In this document: piece after piece, positions 4,698-42,435 of the stretch
Layout: each line of letters starts with the position of its first letter
Numbering within the stretch: the first letter of the stretch is position 1
Source: Armatimonadota bacterium
GTDB lineage: Bacteria; Sysuimicrobiota; Sysuimicrobiia; Sysuimicrobiales; Kaftiobacteriaceae
DNA length: 42,435 nucleotides
Direction of reading: 5' to 3'
NCBI GenBank assembly: GCA_016193565.1
Contig: JACPRY010000002.1
Span: forward strand, 1 to 42,435
Made by a program: the position numbers and the translations under genes
Notes under the pieces: generated by a model
What the model saw: the letters and a program-made list of their open reading frames with translations, nothing else
Told to the model about the DNA's origin: nothing
Database searches by the model: none

Positions 4698-5606
4698 ATG
4701 GAGGCTGGGAAAGGGCCAATCCTCGTCATCATTAATCCCACCGCCAGCCGGGGCCGCGGCGTCCGTGCCTGGGCCAGAGTCCGTGATGCGGTGGCCTCCC
4801 GCGGATTTGTCGTCACCGAAGTCCTCACTGAACGGCGGATGCATGCCTGGGAGATCGCGCGTGGTGCCGGTCAGCAGGGCTACAGCACCGTCGTGGCGGT
4901 AGGGGGAGACGGCACTGTGCACGAGGTCATCAACGGTCTGATGCAGACAGCCCAGACGGCGCGGCCTGCGCTGGCGGTCCTTCCCGGGGGAACCGGCAAC
5001 GATTTCGCGCGGGGCATCGGCACACCAAAGCGGGCCGAACTCGCGATTCAGGCGCTACTGAACGGCACGAGAAAGCGTGTTGATGTGGGGCAGGTGAACG
5101 ATCGGTACTTCGGCAGCATCTCGGGCGTGGGGTTCGATGCCGAAACTGCGCGGCAGGCGAACCAGTGGCCGAAGTGGATCGGCGGCACGGCGCTGTACGT
5201 CGCTGCGCTTCTGAAGATGCTTGTAGCCTACACCCCGGTCGAGACGACGATCACGATCGACGGACGCGTCCAGACGATCCGGATGTTTCTACTGGCGGCG
5301 GCCAATACCAAGTGGTACGGGGGCGGAATGTTCATGGCGCCGCATGCAGACATGAATGACGGCCGCCTGGCCGTTGTGTATGCGCGCGACCTGGGGAAAC
5401 TTGAAACGCTCGCAGTGCTCCCGAAAGTCTATTCTGGGAAACACCTGCTGCACCCCAAGGTCTCACACACAACGGCCGACGAAATCCGGGTCGAGAGCGA
5501 CACTCCGCTGTCCATTCACGCCGACGGAGAGATCGTCGGTCGTGTGCCCGCGGTGTTCCGCGCGGTTCACGGCGCCCTTGAAGTGCTGGTCCCCCAACTG
5601 CCGTGA
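4698..5606 (+). CDS. Diacylglycerol kinase-family lipid kinase (YegS/DgkB type)
   Basis: 302 residues with the DAGK catalytic fold: an N-terminal LVIINPTASRGRG strand-loop, the nucleotide loop GGDGTVHEVINGL (about 69-81) and GGTGNDFARG (97-106). The C-terminal part has FMAPHADMNDG and SIHADGE. It probably phosphorylates diacylglycerol or a related lipid at the membrane. I chose ATG 4698, with GAGGG eight bases upstream, over GTG 4665, which lacks a ribosome site. It is transcribed divergently from ispH and convergently to plsC. Its TGA stop lies in the first unit of a two-armed heptamer array. The exact lipid substrate cannot be read from sequence. Confidence 0.93.
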   Translation: MEAGKGPILVIINPTASRGRGVRAWARVRDAVASRGFVVTEVLTERRMHAWEIARGAGQQGYSTVVAVGGDGTVHEVINGLMQTAQTARPALAVLPGGTGNDFARGIGTPKRAELAIQALLNGTRKRVDVGQVNDRYFGSISGVGFDAETARQANQWPKWIGGTALYVAALLKMLVAYTPVETTITIDGRVQTIRMFLLAAANTKWYGGGMFMAPHADMNDGRLAVVYARDLGKLETLAVLPKVYSGKHLLHPKVSHTTADEIRVESDTPLSIHADGEIVGRVPAVFRAVHGALEVLVPQLP

Positions 5607-5681
5607 ATCGTGAATCGTGAATGGTGAATCGCACTACCTCTTAGGGTCATCACCATTCACCATTCACCATTCACCATTCAC
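5603..5681. repeat. Inverted 4+4 heptamer array GTGAATS between convergent genes
   Basis: Four GTGAATS units (5603-5630) are followed by a 23-nt loop and four CATTCAC units (5654-5681). The outermost left unit supplies the TGA of the lipid kinase and the outermost right unit supplies the TGA of plsC, so both convergent genes end inside the element, each as CCG-TGA. The transcript from either strand would fold into a stem of about 28 bp. The same unit builds the array at 21906-21979. Confidence 0.9.
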
Positions 5682-6376
5682 GGCTTCTTGGGTTTCTGAT
5701 CCTCCGGCAACAGTTTCGCAATTTCCGCCATGATCCGCCGTCCCCACTCCTCCAGCACCTGGTGATCGAGTTTCCCTTCGATCTTCGGCACGGATAAGGG
5801 CCGGCCGAACCGCACGATGACGCGCTGAAAACGCGGCAGGGCCGAACCCTTGGGCATCGCGCGATGGCTGTTGACAACGGCGATGGGTAGGACCGTCACT
5901 CCCGTCCGCAGCGCCAGCATCGCCGCGCCGGGTTCGGGATCCTGGAGCCGGCCGTCGGGGCTCCGCGTCCCCTCGGGGAACATCACGAGGACGCCTCCGG
6001 AGGCCAGCACCTCGAGCGAGTGCCGGATCGCCGCACGGTCGGGCTGGCCGCGCCGGACGGGAAACGTTCCAATCGATCGCAGCCAGGGACCCACGACCGG
6101 CACCGAAAAGAGCTCGGCCTTCGCCATGTACGCCGCCCGGTTGCGCAGCGCCGCGCCAATGATAAGTGGATCGGCCGCGCTCGCGTGGTTGCCCGCCACG
6201 ATGAACGGGCCCCGCTCCGGCTCGTGCTCCCGGCCTTCGATCGTGAAGCGCGTGAGCACCTTGAAGAACGCGCTCATTACGAGCTTCCAGAAGAGGTACC
6301 ACAGGCCGGAGAGCGTCCCGGCGACGCGGTGCCCGGGGGATGCCCGTGGGATCGACGCGACGGCGTTCCGGTTCAC
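5678..6376 (-). CDS. plsC: 1-acyl-sn-glycerol-3-phosphate acyltransferase PlsC
   Basis: 232 residues of the PlsC family, which makes phosphatidic acid from lysophosphatidic acid at the inner membrane. Catalytic block I is NHASAADPLIIG (His-X4-Asp). FPEGTRSPDG is the glycerol-phosphate-binding block III, and LPIAVVNSHRAMPKG is block IV. A hydrophobic segment lies near residues 20-42. The GTG start overlaps the cmk stop (GTGA). The TGA stop falls inside the last unit of the heptamer array shared with the convergent lipid kinase. The cmk-plsC pairing is common in bacteria. Confidence 0.95.
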   Translation of the reverse strand: MNRNAVASIPRASPGHRVAGTLSGLWYLFWKLVMSAFFKVLTRFTIEGREHEPERGPFIVAGNHASAADPLIIGAALRNRAAYMAKAELFSVPVVGPWLRSIGTFPVRRGQPDRAAIRHSLEVLASGGVLVMFPEGTRSPDGRLQDPEPGAAMLALRTGVTVLPIAVVNSHRAMPKGSALPRFQRVIVRFGRPLSVPKIEGKLDHQVLEEWGRRIMAEIAKLLPEDQKPKKP

Positions 6377-17000: not shown

Positions 17001-17080
17001 GCCGAAGGTCGTATGTCGAAGGTCGAATGTTGCCACGGAAATTGCTCTCGACTTTCGACCTACGACCTTCGACCTACGTT
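17001..17080. repeat. Inverted heptamer array GTCGWAG between convergent genes
   Basis: Left arm units GCCGAAG, GTCGTAT, GTCGAAG, GTCGAAT (17001-17028); right arm units TCTCGAC, TTTCGAC, CTACGAC, CTTCGAC and a partial CTACG (17046-17078), loop 17 nt. The TAG stop of trmI (17074-17076) lies in the outermost right unit. The transporter TGA on the other side is four bases outside the array. Confidence 0.85.
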
Positions 17081-20030: not shown

Positions 20031-20037
20031 CTCCTCA

Positions 20038-20113
20038 GGGCTTGGGGCTTAGGGCTTTGGGCTTAGAATTCCTCATCCTCATTATTAAGCCCTAAGCCCG
20101 ATGCCCTAAGCCC
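20038..20113. repeat. Inverted 4+4 heptamer array GGGCTTA
   Basis: GGGCTTG, GGGCTTA, GGGCTTT, GGGCTTA (20038-20065), a 20-nt loop, then TAAGCCC, TAAGCCC, GATGCCC, TAAGCCC (20086-20113). The TAG stop of etfA (20106-20108) spans the last two units. Same unit as the array at 24370-24443. Confidence 0.9.
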
Positions 20114-21905: not shown

Positions 21906-21979
21906 GTGAATAGTGAATGGTGAATGGTGAATCACTACATCCGGTTCTTGCCATTCACCATTCACAATTCACCATTCAC
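21906..21979. repeat. Inverted 4+4 heptamer array GTGAATS
   Basis: GTGAATA, GTGAATG, GTGAATG, GTGAATC (21906-21933), an 18-nt loop, then CATTCAC, CATTCAC, AATTCAC, CATTCAC (21952-21979). The TGA stop of the acyl-CoA dehydrogenase (21976-21978) lies in the outermost right unit. Same unit as at 5603-5681. Confidence 0.9.
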
Positions 21980-23124
21980 TGCCTTGTTTTCAAAATGTTC
22001 CTCGCGATTACGAGTCGCTGTATCTCCGATGTCCCCTCATAGATCTCGGTGATCTTTGCATCGCGGAAATAGCGTTCCACAGCGTAGTCCTGGAGGTATC
22101 CGTACCCGCCGTGGATCTGCACCGCTTTGTGCGTCGTCCACATCGCGGTCTCAGAGGCGAACAGCTTCGCCATCGATGCTTCCTTTGTAAAGCGTTGTCC
22201 CTGCTGCCGGACGTAGGCGGCCCGGTACATGAGCAGCCGGGCGGCCTCGATCCGGGTCGCCATATCGGCTAGCATCCACTGAATCGCTTGAAACTCCCCG
22301 ATCGGCCGGCCGAACTGGAGGCGCTCGGTGGCGTAGGCGACTGAATCCTCCAGGGCCGCCCGGGCGATGCCGATGGCCTGTCCAGCGATGCCAAGGCGCC
22401 CGCCGTCGAGCGTGGACAGCGCGATCTTGCCGCCGATCCCTGGTTCCCCAAGCAGGTTGTCTTCCGGGACACGGCAGTCGTCGAGGAGAATCTCGGACGT
22501 CGACGAACACTTGATCCCGAGTTTCTTCTCCACCTTTCCAACGGCAATACCCGGAAACGATTTCTCAACGATGAACGCGGAGATCCCCCTCGCACCGGCG
22601 TCGGGTCCGGTGCGAGCGTACACGATGCAGACGTCGGCCTCGACGCCGTTCGTGACGAAGACCTTGGTCCCCCTCAACACCCACTCGTCCCCCGAGCGCC
22701 TGGCAGACGTGGACAGCGACATCGCATCGGAGCCCGAGGAGGGCTCGGTCAGACAGTAGCACCCCAGACGTATTCCGTTGCATAAGCCGGGAAGATAGTT
22801 CCGCTTCTGTGCCTCAGTGCCGTAGCGGGCGATCGGGTCAGCAACCAACGAGTTGTTGACGGTGATGATCGTCTGCACGCCGGCCGAGGCGCGCGCCAGT
22901 TCTTCCTGAGCCACGACATAGGAGATGGCGTCCATTCCGGTCCCGCCGTATGACTCGGGAACCAGCATGCCCATGAGGCCGAGGCCGGCCGCTTTCTTGA
23001 GAATCTCCTGGGGGAATGTACCGGAATGGTCCAGCTGCGCGGCGGCCGGCAAGATCTCCCGGGACGCGAACTCCCGCACCATCGATTGGACCATGCGGTG
23101 TTCTTCTGTCAGTCGAAAATCCAT
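21976..23124 (-). CDS. Acyl-CoA dehydrogenase
   Basis: 382 residues of the acyl-CoA dehydrogenase family (FAD-dependent alpha,beta-oxidation). The FAD/substrate motif is CYCLTEPSSGSDAMS. The C-terminal block has QIHGGYGYLQDYAVERYFRD and ITEIYEGTSEIQRL, whose Glu is the catalytic base of short-chain enzymes. A butyryl-/short-chain substrate is most likely from motif type and from EtfBA and the isobutyryl-CoA-type mutase downstream (inference). ATG 23124 lies 91 bases from the divergent thiolase-like gene; that gap contains the perfect palindrome GACCGGTC, a possible operator. Confidence 0.95.
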   Translation of the reverse strand: MDFRLTEEHRMVQSMVREFASREILPAAAQLDHSGTFPQEILKKAAGLGLMGMLVPESYGGTGMDAISYVVAQEELARASAGVQTIITVNNSLVADPIARYGTEAQKRNYLPGLCNGIRLGCYCLTEPSSGSDAMSLSTSARRSGDEWVLRGTKVFVTNGVEADVCIVYARTGPDAGARGISAFIVEKSFPGIAVGKVEKKLGIKCSSTSEILLDDCRVPEDNLLGEPGIGGKIALSTLDGGRLGIAGQAIGIARAALEDSVAYATERLQFGRPIGEFQAIQWMLADMATRIEAARLLMYRAAYVRQQGQRFTKEASMAKLFASETAMWTTHKAVQIHGGYGYLQDYAVERYFRDAKITEIYEGTSEIQRLVIARNILKTRQ

Positions 23125-24369: not shown

Positions 24370-24443
24370 GGGCTTAGGGCTTCGGGCTAAGGGCTAGACA
24401 ACTTCAAAGGGATACTAAGCCCCAAGCCCTAAGCCCAAAGCCC
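24370..24443. repeat. Inverted 4+4 heptamer array GGGCTTA between the thiolase-like genes
   Basis: GGGCTTA, GGGCTTC, GGGCTAA, GGGCTAG (24370-24397), an 18-nt loop, then TAAGCCC, CAAGCCC, TAAGCCC, AAAGCCC (24416-24443). It starts six bases after the TAA of the first gene and ends just before the ribosome site of the second, so it lies inside an operon. Confidence 0.88.
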
Positions 24444-39449: not shown

Positions 39450-39478
39450 ATTATAGAGGGTCTATTTCACCCGTTCAA
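39450..39478 (-). promoter_or_regulatory. Strong sigma-70-type promoter for the nusB operon
   Basis: On the minus strand TTGAAC (39473-39478), an exact 17-base spacer and a perfect TATAAT (39450-39455). The -35 box lies in the last codons of efp. Transcription would start near 39443, giving about 265 nt of leader before nusB. This is the best promoter match seen in the window. Confidence 0.8.
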
Positions 39479-40022
39479 GGTATTCGCCCGTGCGCGTGTC
39501 GATGCGCACGCGATCGCCTGCGGAGACGAAGAACGGCACCTGCACCGTGATCCCGGTCTCCAGCTTCGCCGGTTTTGAACTGCCGGCAGCGGTGTCCCCT
39601 TTCACTCCCGGCGGTGTCTCCACCACCTCAAGCTCCACGGCGTTCGGCAGCTCGACAGCGATCGGCCGGCCCTCGTAAAACACGACGGTGACATCGGTGT
39701 TTTCCTTCAAGTAGCCCACGGCATCGCCGAGCAATGCATTCGGGAGCGAGAGCTGCTCGTACGTCTGGTGATCCATCACGACGTACTCGCCCGCCTGCGA
39801 GTACAGGAACTGCATCGGCTTCCGATCGAGGTAGGCCTGGCTCACGCGCTCATCGGAGGTGAAGTTGCGTTCCAGCACGGCCCCGGTCTTCAGGTTGCGG
39901 AGCCTCGCGCGCACGAACGCCTGGCGCTGCGCCCGCTTGTGATGGTGTGTCTCAATCACCGCGTATAGGTCGCCTTCCAGCTGGATGACCACGCCCGGGC
40001 GGAGATCGCCGGTCGAGATCAT
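39462..40022 (-). CDS. efp: Elongation factor P with an atypical tip
   Basis: 186 residues with the three OB-like domains of EF-P: ISTGDLRPGVVIQLEGDLYA, then FVRARLRNLKTGAVLE, FLYSQAGEYVVMDHQTYEQ and the C-terminal KLETGITVQVPFFV with GDRVRIDTRTGEYLERV. The loop that enters the peptidyl-transferase centre normally carries Lys or Arg (KPGKGQAF in E. coli, Lys34). Here it reads KRAQRQAF, with Gln32 at the modified position, so beta-lysylation, rhamnosylation and aminopentanol modification all lack their target. ATG overlaps the peptidase stop (ATGA). Confidence 0.95.
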   Translation of the reverse strand: MISTGDLRPGVVIQLEGDLYAVIETHHHKRAQRQAFVRARLRNLKTGAVLERNFTSDERVSQAYLDRKPMQFLYSQAGEYVVMDHQTYEQLSLPNALLGDAVGYLKENTDVTVVFYEGRPIAVELPNAVELEVVETPPGVKGDTAAGSSKPAKLETGITVQVPFFVSAGDRVRIDTRTGEYLERVK

Positions 40023-41080
40023 AGGACCAGCAGCTCCTTCGGCGCGCGCGTGAGAACTTCACTGGCGTGGTCGCGGATCACCACGAGGTCTTCGATGCGC
40101 ACCCCGCCCCACCCGGCCAGGTAGATGCCGGGTTCTACCGTCACCACCATGCTCGCTCCGAGCACGGCGTCCTCACGCGGAGACAGCGTCGGGCCCTCGT
40201 GCACCATCAGGCCGACGCCGTGCCCCAAACTGTGCCCAAAGGCATCCCCGTAGCCAGCGCCGGCGATCACGTCGCGCGCCAGCGCATCGGCTTCCTTGCC
40301 CGTCATGCCGGCATGAATGCCGCGCACCGCCGTCTGCTGCGCCTCAAGGACGAGCGCGTAGACCTCCCGCTGCTTTGGTGACACTTCGTCGATCACCACG
40401 GTGCGCGTGCAGTCAGAGTTGTAGTGACGGTACACCGCCCCGAAATCCAAGGTCACGAGGTCCCCTGCCTGCAGGACGCGCTCGGCGGCGCGCCCGTGCG
40501 GGAGCGATGAGCGCGGGCCGCTGGCGACGATGGTCTCGAACGCCTCCTTGTCCGCGCCGTGGCGCCGCATGAAGAACTCCATCTCCAGGGCGATATCGCG
40601 CTCCACCGCCCCGGGCCGCAGGTACGAGCGGATGTGGGCGAACGCCGCATCAGCGATCTCGACGGCCTTCCGGATGCGCGAGAGTTCCTCGTCGTCTTTC
40701 ACCCAACGCGCCCGGTCCAGGCCTTCCATCGGCACCAATTCCGCCGGCTGAAGTCTTGTCGTGTAGTCCTGATACTGCTTGACGGTGACTGATTCGCTCT
40801 CGAAACCGATCCGCTTCCATTCCCGCTGCTGCACGAGCGCGGCCAGCGTTTCGATGTACTGCCGGTCGGCCTTCATCACCTCGAACTCGGGCGCCTCGCG
40901 TCCCGCCTGCTCCACGTACCGGAAGTCCACCAATAAGATCGCTTCTTTCCGCGTGACGATCGCGACGCCGTCGGAGCCAAAGAACCCCGTCACGTACGCC
41001 CGGTTCTCGGACTTCTGAATGAGCAGCGCATCCAGGTTATGCTGGCTGAGCATCGAGCGAACCCGCTCGAGTCGAGACAT
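40019..41080 (-). CDS. Xaa-Pro aminopeptidase/dipeptidase (M24B)
   Basis: 353 residues with the creatinase-like N-terminal domain (MSRLERVRSMLSQHNLDALL, NRAYVTGFFGSDGV) and the pita-bread metallopeptidase domain. The five metal ligands are Asp in VTLDFGAVY, Asp in YNSDCTRTV, His in GHSLGHGVGLMVHEGP, Glu in VTVEPGIYL and Glu in VRIEDLVVI. It removes residues before proline. The pepQ/pepP-efp pairing is widespread and functionally sensible, since EF-P helps synthesise proline-rich peptides. ATG 41080 is preferred; upstream sequence lacks family similarity. Confidence 0.95.
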   Translation of the reverse strand: MSRLERVRSMLSQHNLDALLIQKSENRAYVTGFFGSDGVAIVTRKEAILLVDFRYVEQAGREAPEFEVMKADRQYIETLAALVQQREWKRIGFESESVTVKQYQDYTTRLQPAELVPMEGLDRARWVKDDEELSRIRKAVEIADAAFAHIRSYLRPGAVERDIALEMEFFMRRHGADKEAFETIVASGPRSSLPHGRAAERVLQAGDLVTLDFGAVYRHYNSDCTRTVVIDEVSPKQREVYALVLEAQQTAVRGIHAGMTGKEADALARDVIAGAGYGDAFGHSLGHGVGLMVHEGPTLSPREDAVLGASMVVTVEPGIYLAGWGGVRIEDLVVIRDHASEVLTRAPKELLVL

Positions 41081-41173
41081 CAAGATAACTACGCTCCTCG
41101 CGCAATCTGATCCTGACTTTGGTTCGTGAGTTCTGGTGGAATGGCCTTCTCCAGTCGCACCACGCATCCAACG

Positions 41174-41755
41174 TCATTCTGCGACGGCGGTTTCAGTTGG
41201 TCGAGCGGTCTTCATTGAGTGACGGACGAACTCCACATAGGCCGATCTCGCTCGACCGCGGTCTTCCGCCAGGAGCGCAAGTACCGGCGCCACGTCGACG
41301 AGAGAATCTCCACCATCGGTCGCATAGGCGCCAAAACTGCTCCACGGATACTGCTCAGGCTGCTCTACGATGCCGGCTCGCACGGGGTTAAGGTGTACGT
41401 AGCACGTCGACTGGAGAAGATCCTCATTGCGATCGATAACCCGGCCATGGAAGCGCGTCGCAAACAGGTGCCCCCGTCTGGTGTGTTTCCGATTGAACGC
41501 GATTGCGTAGCGACCGTGCACCCACCAGATGCTTTCGGAGACGTTGGGCTTCGTCGTCTGAATGACGAGATGGATGTGGGTAGTCATCAGTGCGTAGGCG
41601 AAGATGCAAGGGTCGCACTTTGCCTTGGCTTCGGCGAGTAGGATCAGGTACCGATACCGATCCCCGTCGTCCACGAAGAGTGCGTCTCCGCCGGTGGCAT
41701 GCGCCGTGATGTGGTAGGTGACTCCGGCACCAAGCAAACGGTGCGCCCTAGGCAT
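41174..41755 (-). CDS. Y1 (HUH) single-strand transposase, RAYT/REP-associated type
   Basis: 193 residues of the Y1_Tnp family. The HUH motif is MTTHIHLVIQ (His60, His62) and the catalytic Tyr is Tyr119 in STCYVHLNPVRAGIV, the signature of REP-associated tyrosine transposases. HLFATRFHGRVID is typical too. RAYTs process REP hairpins in single-stranded DNA and are usually single-copy, not true insertion sequences. AGGAAGAG precedes ATG 41753-41755. The hairpin cluster immediately upstream (41773-41845) is the expected partner. Confidence 0.92.
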   Translation of the reverse strand: MPRAHRLLGAGVTYHITAHATGGDALFVDDGDRYRYLILLAEAKAKCDPCIFAYALMTTHIHLVIQTTKPNVSESIWWVHGRYAIAFNRKHTRRGHLFATRFHGRVIDRNEDLLQSTCYVHLNPVRAGIVEQPEQYPWSSFGAYATDGGDSLVDVAPVLALLAEDRGRARSAYVEFVRHSMKTARPTETAVAE

Positions 41756-41772
41756 TGCTCTTCCTCACAGGC

Positions 41773-41845
41773 CAGATCTGAGAGATCTGTGCCTCACCTC
41801 AGGTGCCAGGCACCTGAGTGCCTGGCACCTGAGTGCCTGGCACCG
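41773..41845. repeat. REP-like palindrome cluster beside the RAYT gene
   Basis: CAGATCT-GAG-AGATCTG (41773-41789) is followed by AGGTGCCAGGCAC-CTGA-GTGCCTGGCACCT (41801-41830), a perfect 13-bp stem with a 4-nt loop, and then a third half-site GAGTGCCTGGCACC (41831-41844). The word GTGCCTGGCAC thus occurs three times in alternating orientation within 45 bases. It lies between the transposase start and the pilin stop. The rest of the 140-base gap shows nothing. Confidence 0.8.
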
Positions 41846-41895
41846 GCATGAGAGATAGCTCAAATGGGTCATCTCCCTTTGTGCTCACGGTTGGC

Positions 41896-42375
41896 CTAGG
41901 GACAACCGGTGTTGGACACGCGGACCCGTCCTGTGGCGGGCATCACGCGGACGCACAGGTGGGCGGAGCCGGCTCTCAGGGTCACCGTGCCTCCGCCGGA
42001 TGGGGCGCCAAACAGACTGACACCCGTGAAGAACACCGCTGAGGAGGGGCTCCCGCCGAAGCGGACATGCGTCAGGTGAACGCGGGCGGGGAGGCGCTGC
42101 TCGCGCACGACGGTGGTCCTGCTCCCGGTCCGGATGAAGACGAGGTAGCGAGAGGCCTCGGGCCGGAACTCGATGCCGTGGCGGCGGTCGGGCTCTCGCT
42201 CGGCGATGGCGCGGGCCTGCACCAGCCGCAGATCAGCGACCAGCGTGATCGCGGCTGAGCGAAGGGCGACCCGGGACAGCAGGGGATACGCCAGCCAGAC
42301 GACCCCGAGCAGGCCGGCCGCCAGTCCACTGACGATGATGACCTCAAAGAGGGTCGCGCCTTTTTGCGTGGCCAC
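41896..42375 (-). CDS. Type II secretion/type IV pilus minor pseudopilin (GspH/FimT-like)
   Basis: 159 residues from GTG 42375; the frame stays open to 42414. The N-terminus is a class III signal peptide: QKG-ATLFEVIIVSGLAAG, cleaved by prepilin peptidase after Gly, with Glu at +5 and a long hydrophobic helix. The C-terminal GspH/FimT-like domain follows (ALRSAAITLVADLRLVQARA, and a late strand with VTLRAGSAHLCVRVM). It would be a minor subunit priming pilus or pseudopilus assembly. The rest of its cluster is presumably beyond the right edge. A hairpin overlaps its ribosome site. Confidence 0.85.
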   Translation of the reverse strand: MATQKGATLFEVIIVSGLAAGLLGVVWLAYPLLSRVALRSAAITLVADLRLVQARAIAEREPDRRHGIEFRPEASRYLVFIRTGSRTTVVREQRLPARVHLTHVRFGGSPSSAVFFTGVSLFGAPSGGGTVTLRAGSAHLCVRVMPATGRVRVSNTGCP

Positions 42376-42377
42376 GC

Positions 42378-42405
42378 ACTGACCCCTACGCTCTCCGGGG
42401 TCAGT
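42378..42405. promoter_or_regulatory. Perfect 9-bp hairpin covering the pilin ribosome site
   Basis: ACTGACCCC (42378-42386) and GGGGTCAGT (42397-42405) are perfectly complementary with a 10-nt loop. On the minus strand the arm next to the GTG start contains AGGGG, the only Shine-Dalgarno-like run near the start, so pairing would hide it. The bases from 42406 to the window end hold no separate feature. Confidence 0.6.
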
Positions 42406-42435
42406 CCACCACACTCAATGAACTGCGCCAATGAC

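Follow-up and report, generated by a model that had tools for sequence, protein, structure and literature searches.

The GTAG class, or REPtrons (PMC2817692, PMC6006769, PMC8266576), offers the best-described case of REP palindromes coupled to RAYT enzymes. In this class the transposase is a Y1 HUH enzyme with a Y---NP signature, palindromes lie beside its gene (on both sides of it) and between genes genome-wide, the palindrome word tends to follow the enzyme, and paired copies fold into long hairpins. The palindromes carry a GT[AG]G tag, contacted in E. coli TnpA-REP by W94, Q95, E100, H101 and R104 (PMC6006769), and REP copy number is usually above 100 (PMC2817692). Cleavage of single-stranded REPs by the E. 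coli enzyme takes place at CT on the 5' or 3' side of the hairpin and proceeds via a 5'-phosphotyrosine (PMC8266576). A second group, the TIRYTs or TIRtrons of subclass 2.1 (PMC3733652, PMC6006769), is described as having a Y[IV]HLNP motif, an NHVH signature, a C-terminal extension (HTH; median length 238 aa) and long terminal inverted repeats (TIRs) of consensus GGGGWSAS, some of them self-complementary and repeated; Quentin 2018 (PMC6006769) reports no REP-like sequences for this subclass. The TnpA enzymes of IS200/IS605 (subclass 1.1) have the same Y1_Tnp domain and catalytic motifs, with Y---Q.

Here we analyse a RAYT gene and its palindromes in the window, i.e. the whole 42,435-nt stretch of DNA under study. 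The first-pass annotation had called the arrangement a classical RAYT/REP one. This was right in so far as a RAYT-type enzyme, with the Y---NP signature and with paired palindromes that fold into long hairpins, stands beside a dispersed intergenic palindrome, but the assignment to the classical GTAG type does not hold. The tag is absent (GTRG within 8 nt on 3 of the 64 sides of the 32 exact 13-mers, against 4.7% of background windows), none of the five GTAG-contact residues is conserved (F98, A99, G104, R105 and D108 in a profile alignment to 4er8), the palindromes of the window lie on one side of the gene, not both, and the 32 exact copies amount to tens, not hundreds. The palindrome itself also differs, being 13 nt long and odd-centred on CWG with no separate loop. 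The likeness to TIRYTs consists of the motif YVHLNP and of the GGGGTCAG of the GGGGTCAGACCCC word found in relatives, which fits GGGGWSAS; at the place of NHVH the enzyme reads TTHIH. However, the protein of 193 aa is without the C-terminal extension, and no long terminal inverted repeats are seen in the window, whereas repeats bearing GGGGWSAS flank another RAYT of the genome (C156). The enzyme differs from IS200/IS605 TnpA in having Y---NP and not Y---Q, and no near-identical copies were found in the genome, which has five RAYT matches. The system is a RAYT/REP-like variant that departs from the GTAG class in three respects (no tag, none of the contact residues, palindromes on one side) and from TIRYTs in two (no C-terminal extension, no TIRs). 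We consider it likely, from sequence comparison, that it is a RAYT/REP-like system of non-GTAG type, in which a resident ssDNA transposase would have seeded the dispersed palindromes.

The RAYT and its upstream palindrome array

The RAYT gene (41174-41755, minus strand) is an ORF of 193 aa for a Y1 HUH transposase, which scores 26.7 bits against Pfam Y1_Tnp (cut-off 23) and 73.5 bits against NCBIfam REP_Tyr_transpos, under a cut-off of 80 that is passed by one of the five matches in the genome (C156). All of the catalytic residues are present, as had been annotated, with HxH as H60-I-H62 and Y119 within YVHLNP. The N before HxH is missing here and in 5 of 20 relatives, and the RGNN motif, found in 8 of 11 aligned relatives, is lost and reads HATGG. 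With the window protein as single query, phmmer gave no match in the PDB and a search of genome contigs gave one distant relative (L058, an Ignavibacteria MAG), while a 12-row family profile reached TnpA-REP 4er8 with an E of 4.5e-6. Among plasmid records there were 24 matches, every one below 60% identity. Structure prediction of the enzyme alone had a mean pLDDT of 30.

The palindrome array lies in the RAYT 5' leader, between this gene and a GspH-like minor pilin gene (41896-42414, minus strand; weak NCBIfam matches, all under cut-off). Matches to GTGCC[AT]GGCAC start at 41803, 41818 and 41833, i.e. with a period of 15 nt; the first is part of a full 13-mer, GGTGCCAGGCACC (41802-41814), and the other two (41818-41828 and 41833-41843) are the 11-mer GTGCCTGGCAC, in which the flanking base is A, not G. 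Together they form a tandem array of 2.8 units of GTGCCTGGCACCTGA (41803-41844), which lies 51 nt beyond the pilin stop. With up to one mismatch and on both strands, the motif matches 8 times in the window, whereas 100 shuffles gave 1.22 matches on average and never more than 7, and the GTGCCWGGCAC palindromes of the window are found upstream of the RAYT only, with none on its other side.

The first-pass annotation had described three alternating copies and a perfect 13-bp hairpin with a CTGA loop. There are three copies, but their plus-strand centres read A, T, T, which is not a strict alternation. Palindromes 1 and 2 pair into a hairpin (41798-41833; arms 41798-41813 and 41818-41833) that is perfect and has the CTGA loop, but is 16 bp long. 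Between its foot and the RAYT ATG there are 42 nt, and its fold as single-stranded DNA gave z-scores of -5.2 and -5.4, one for each strand. A second palindrome, TRRCYCANNTGRGYYA (TGACCCATTTGAGCTA on the minus strand; 41856-41871), occurs 116 nt before the RAYT start, in the same upstream region as the array and just beyond the range that had been annotated. The window also holds five other hairpin arrays (5600-5684, 17003-17078, 20034-20113, 21906-21980 and 24370-24443), and it had been asked whether the enzyme acts on these too. This idea found no support: the five arrays are built of 7- or 14-nt units (CGTGAAT, GTCGAAG, GGGCTTA and similar), the GTGCC word is absent from them and their sequence is unrelated to the RAYT palindromes.

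Dispersal of the palindrome in the genome

A genome-wide count of the palindrome, together with its clustering between genes, had been proposed as a check on the RAYT/REP reading. The assembly of the window's genome (G000; 1.74 Mb, 87% complete) contains 48 copies of GTGCCWGGCAC versus 2 for the reversed control pattern, so that the palindrome is far from confined to the window. The 13-mer GGTGCCWGGCACC is present in 32 exact copies, and in 111 with up to two mismatches (48 for the control). The sequence around all 48 GTGCCWGGCAC sites was examined, and they group into 30 clusters. All 22 clusters with the full 13-mer are intergenic (coding fraction 0.82; p 3e-17), as judged by a home-made coding model that leaves the window RAYT and the C169 RAYT uncalled and therefore overlooks genes of unusual composition; by the same model, six of the eight clusters with the 11-mer only are intergenic and two lie within called genes.

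Spacing within the clusters is largely fixed. Among the 28 successive spacings of up to 60 nt, 15 are of 15 nt, 11 of 29 nt, one of 30 nt and one of 58 nt. In the layout that we call type A, two copies are exactly 29 nt apart (11 pairs: C15, C21, three in C33, C49, C91, C115, C117, C169 and C181), and GGCC and A-rich stretches are common in the spacers or flanks. Type B consists of 15-nt tandem arrays and is found at 7 loci including the window; in C78 (L032, about 2010-2220) such an array is doubled in tandem (3 + 2 units) near a run of the heptamer TGATTCG. In type C, which comprises 7 of the 8 clusters without the 13-mer, CGTGCCAGGCAC lies some 35-50 nt from the second palindrome, here searched as TRRCCCANNTGGGYYA with up to one mismatch. 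A single exact 13-mer is present in 4 of the 22 clusters (C23, C24, C35 and C121). Four paired elements that were folded (two from G000 and one each from G008 and G006) gave long REPIN-like hairpins, with z-scores of -5.0 to -8.6.

The 15-nt arrays could in principle have spread through replication slippage and recombination alone, with no part played by the enzyme, and the tandem duplication in C78, with its 3 and 2 units, speaks for this. However, this would leave unexplained the 22 dispersed intergenic clusters, the 29-nt paired form and the co-variation with RAYTs among genomes described below, and we regard it as highly improbable.

Signs of movement were sought by comparing one 17-kb stretch of C33 with G001, G003 and G004. 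The stretch has three elements, one of which could be placed, in G001, so that one of the 30 clusters was compared; neither an empty site nor an element boundary came out of it. The placeable element is at the orthologous G001 site, after the same tRNA-like 3' end, with a GGTACCTGGTACG variant; since the sole comparable dispersed element thus occupies its orthologous place, there is no sign of recent movement. A further segment of C33 (L098, 7370-7870) matches many places in G001, G003 and chiefly G004, and is another dispersed repeat. Literature searches on the words GTGCCTGGCAC and GTGCCAGGCAC returned nothing on REPs, as judged by title, and those on six further palindrome words no match.

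Palindrome words and RAYTs in related genomes

Relatives of the enzyme are present in 8 of the 43 genomes of the order, which are also the whole phylum sample. They give 23 RAYT matches, and two fragments (L080 and L081) were dropped from the flank counts and the tree, leaving 21. A perfect CWG-centred 13-nt palindrome lies within 300 nt of 13 of these 21 genes. The 12.6 kb of RAYT flanks contain 19 such palindromes versus 14 in 164 kb of other sequence, an enrichment of about 18-fold around genes that were picked by protein match alone, under a CWG rule that was noticed in these same flanks before counting; for palindromes centred otherwise, the count of 8 is not clearly above the 5.4 expected. 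The half-words seen included GGTGCC, CGTGCC, GGTGAC, GGTACC, GGGGTC, GGTTCC and GGGGAC.

Words predicted from the flank of a RAYT were then counted over the 43 genomes; three were tried and one failed. The GGGGTC word held: GGGGTCWGACCCC has 19 copies in G003, 14 in G006, 9 in G008, 8 in G004, 4 in G019 and at most 2 elsewhere, and in the four rich genomes (G003, G004, G006 and G008) the syntenic RAYT is flanked by GGGGTCWGACCCC (both sides in G003, upstream in G006) or by its 11-nt core GGGTCAGACCC (both sides in G004 and G008). The GGTACC word, GGTACCWGGTACC, has 10 copies in G008, 8 in G006 (3 of which lie beside the RAYT there), 5 in G011, 4 in G004 and none in G000, and so held in G006, with unexplained copies in G004. 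TGACCWGGTCA (TGACCAGGTCA), the word at the syntenic G001 RAYT, is not enriched in G001, which has 4 copies, as do three other genomes. The reversed control ACTGGWCCAGT occurs 14 times in G027 and probably marks an unrelated repeat family.

When three words are summed, the 8 genomes with a RAYT have 5-50 copies and the 35 without have 0-4; in family f1, the sums are 50, 7, 19, 17, 35 and 29 in the six genomes with a RAYT versus 0, 0, 1 and 1 in the four without. In these sums an 11-mer, GTGCCWGGCAC, is added to two 13-mers, and copies beside the RAYTs are counted in; any p-value for the sums is a guide only because the genomes are related and those of one family are not independent points. Palindrome word and enzyme thus mostly co-occur across genomes. 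Besides the G001 word, the exceptions are G006, with 13 copies of GTGCCWGGCAC, and G004, with 4 of GGTACCWGGTACC, in whose drafts no RAYT flanked by the respective word was found, and G019, with 4 copies of GGGGTCWGACCCC and no RAYT match at E 1e-15.

These counts bear on whether the palindromes are instead sites of the host, i.e. dsDNA binding sites or transcription terminators dispersed for regulation, which would adjoin the RAYT by chance or serve to regulate it. Perfect palindromes suit dimeric dsDNA binding, the array is placed within the RAYT 5' leader, and many clusters are about 20-50 nt from a called gene end. Host sites would not be expected, however, to change such that the abundant word of a genome mostly varies together with the flank of its RAYT, to be enriched around protein-selected RAYTs when other palindromes are not, or to drop to 0-1 copies in the four same-family genomes without a RAYT match, and on balance we find this explanation unlikely.

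A conserved locus with a changing word

The RAYT of the window is followed by a gene for an M24 peptidase (Xaa-Pro peptidase-like), here called pepP (40019-41167, minus strand), and downstream of this by an elongation factor P-like gene (39462-40022, minus strand) recognised from its ORF and synteny, which we take to be EFP (EF-P, efp). The order pilin-RAYT-pepP-EFP is found in G000, G001, G004, G006 and G008, with a RAYT-pepP interval of about 2 kb in the last three, and pilin-RAYT is also present in G003, near a contig end, so that the pilin gene adjoins the RAYT in 6 genomes. In the tree, the branch that sets the six syntenic RAYTs apart has support of only 58/22, and the common descent of the locus therefore rests on synteny, not on the tree. 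Identity between G000 and G001 is 66% for the RAYT, 80% for pepP and 86% for EFP. The RAYTs of this pair have a pN of 0.21 and a pS of 0.75, and a second pair, C128 and G001:C71, is 84% identical with a dN/dS of 0.09; the enzymes are therefore selected genes, and the window RAYT itself is, as read from these substitution ratios, intact and under purifying selection.

The locus is kept between genera while the word changes. At this fixed address the word is GGGGTC-W-GACCCC in G003, G004, G006 and G008, GGTGCC-W-GGCACC in G000 and, in the sister species G001, TGACC-W-GGTCA, which is fading there; G001 keeps the 15-nt period (AGGTCACTTGGGAGC) around this different, degenerate word (TGACCAGGTCA).

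The degenerate G001 array would be accounted for if the locus were a decayed TIRYT of subclass 2.1 type, whose palindromes are relics of its ends and which is inactive now; this has the same origin as the system that we favour and differs from it on present activity. Decay would also fit the Y[IV]HLNP signature, the match of GGGGTCAG in the GGGGTCAGACCCC word to GGGGWSAS, and the shortness of the window protein, which at 193 aa is without the C-terminal extension of the syntenic proteins in G004 (294 aa), G008 (293 aa) and G003 (285 aa). It is less easily squared with the purifying selection on the ORF and with the 32 exact 13-mers, or with the long relatives in other phyla. Matches were seen in 54 genomes outside the order, and in a control set of 24 such RAYTs (280-327 aa; 13.4 kb of flanks) no CWG palindrome was found within 300 nt of the gene, where 20 would be expected at the rate of the phylum's RAYTs and 1.1 at the background rate; in 7 of the 24 the gene is spanned by an inverted repeat of 12 nt or longer, in 4 of these with GGGGTCAG. 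We hold present-day decay to be a doubtful account of the locus.

Under the reading that we prefer, an ssDNA transposase resident at this conserved locus would recognise compact odd-centred palindromes, here GGTGCCWGGCACC, as hairpins of one or two palindromes on single-stranded DNA, e.g. on the lagging-strand template. It would cleave beside the hairpin via a 5'-phosphotyrosine and rejoin the DNA elsewhere, and the outcome would be non-autonomous intergenic palindrome arrays, either tandem with a 15-nt period or paired at 29 nt. The mechanism is modelled on that of E. coli TnpA-REP. Binding, cleavage and mobilisation, and the assignment of the genome's RAYTs to array types, are what we infer, whereas the intact enzyme, its adjacent array, the intergenic dispersal with fixed spacing, the co-occurrence of word and enzyme (with exceptions) and the conserved locus are observed.

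A bolder reading, possible but clearly more tentative, is that of a fixed-address transposase, kept vertically within pilin-RAYT-pepP-efp, whose target word is rewritten between genera with the CWG core kept. Each word would then have arisen by head-to-head fusion of two GGGGWSAS-like tips of TIRYT ends, giving a minimal mobile hairpin intermediate between such ends and REPs, and word and enzyme recognition would evolve together. At this locus a dispersed palindrome adjoins an enzyme with the Y-motif of subclass 2.1, and the syntenic enzymes of sister genera bear a different word, in which the respective genomes are rich, which makes them natural enzyme-word pairs. Such pairs bear on how HUH enzymes read a hairpin without a GTAG guide, and on the origin of REPs from transposon ends.

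Other RAYTs of the genome and the second palindrome

Three aligned RAYTs among the genome's five matches are 32-48% identical to the window enzyme. Two copies of the window's 13-mer, spaced by 29 nt, stand immediately before the start codon of the C169 RAYT; this RAYT and G006:C168 each lie behind tRNA-Arg-CCG, and their sister grouping was neither rejected nor demonstrated (p-AU 0.41). Upstream of the C128 RAYT is GGTGACAGTCACC, of which the genome has 2 exact copies; the other copy (C37) is in a type C layout. The C156 RAYT (L045, 18-1122; 307 aa) lies between inverted repeats AATAGGGGTCAGGTCTTCACTTGCGACA and is a TIRYT-type unit within the same genome, and the C26 RAYT is a fragment at a contig end. 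With several RAYTs in one genome, the palindromes could be shared or divided among them.

Allowing up to two mismatches, 10 of the 21 phylum RAYTs have the second palindrome TRRCYCANNTGRGYYA in the 250 nt before the gene (7 exact), versus 8 inexact and no exact matches in 122 kb of background and 1 of 24 RAYTs of other phyla; the pattern was written after viewing the RAYT upstream regions, and this count is therefore descriptive. The sites include that of the window (41856-41871) and those at L043 1965, L026 732, L034 164 and L042 2116. In the stricter form used for the type C search, it is present at 7 of 7 type C sites. The second palindrome may serve as an operator or be the conserved end of an element. 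At the type C site in C137 (L040, 1979-2185), a match of 26 residues to a RAYT C-terminus lies 50 nt past the palindrome (E 0.001 in 30 loci), so that the second palindrome, CGTGCCAGGCACG and the 26-aa RAYT remnant all lie within about 200 nt. This weakly suggests that type C sites may be internally deleted RAYT units.
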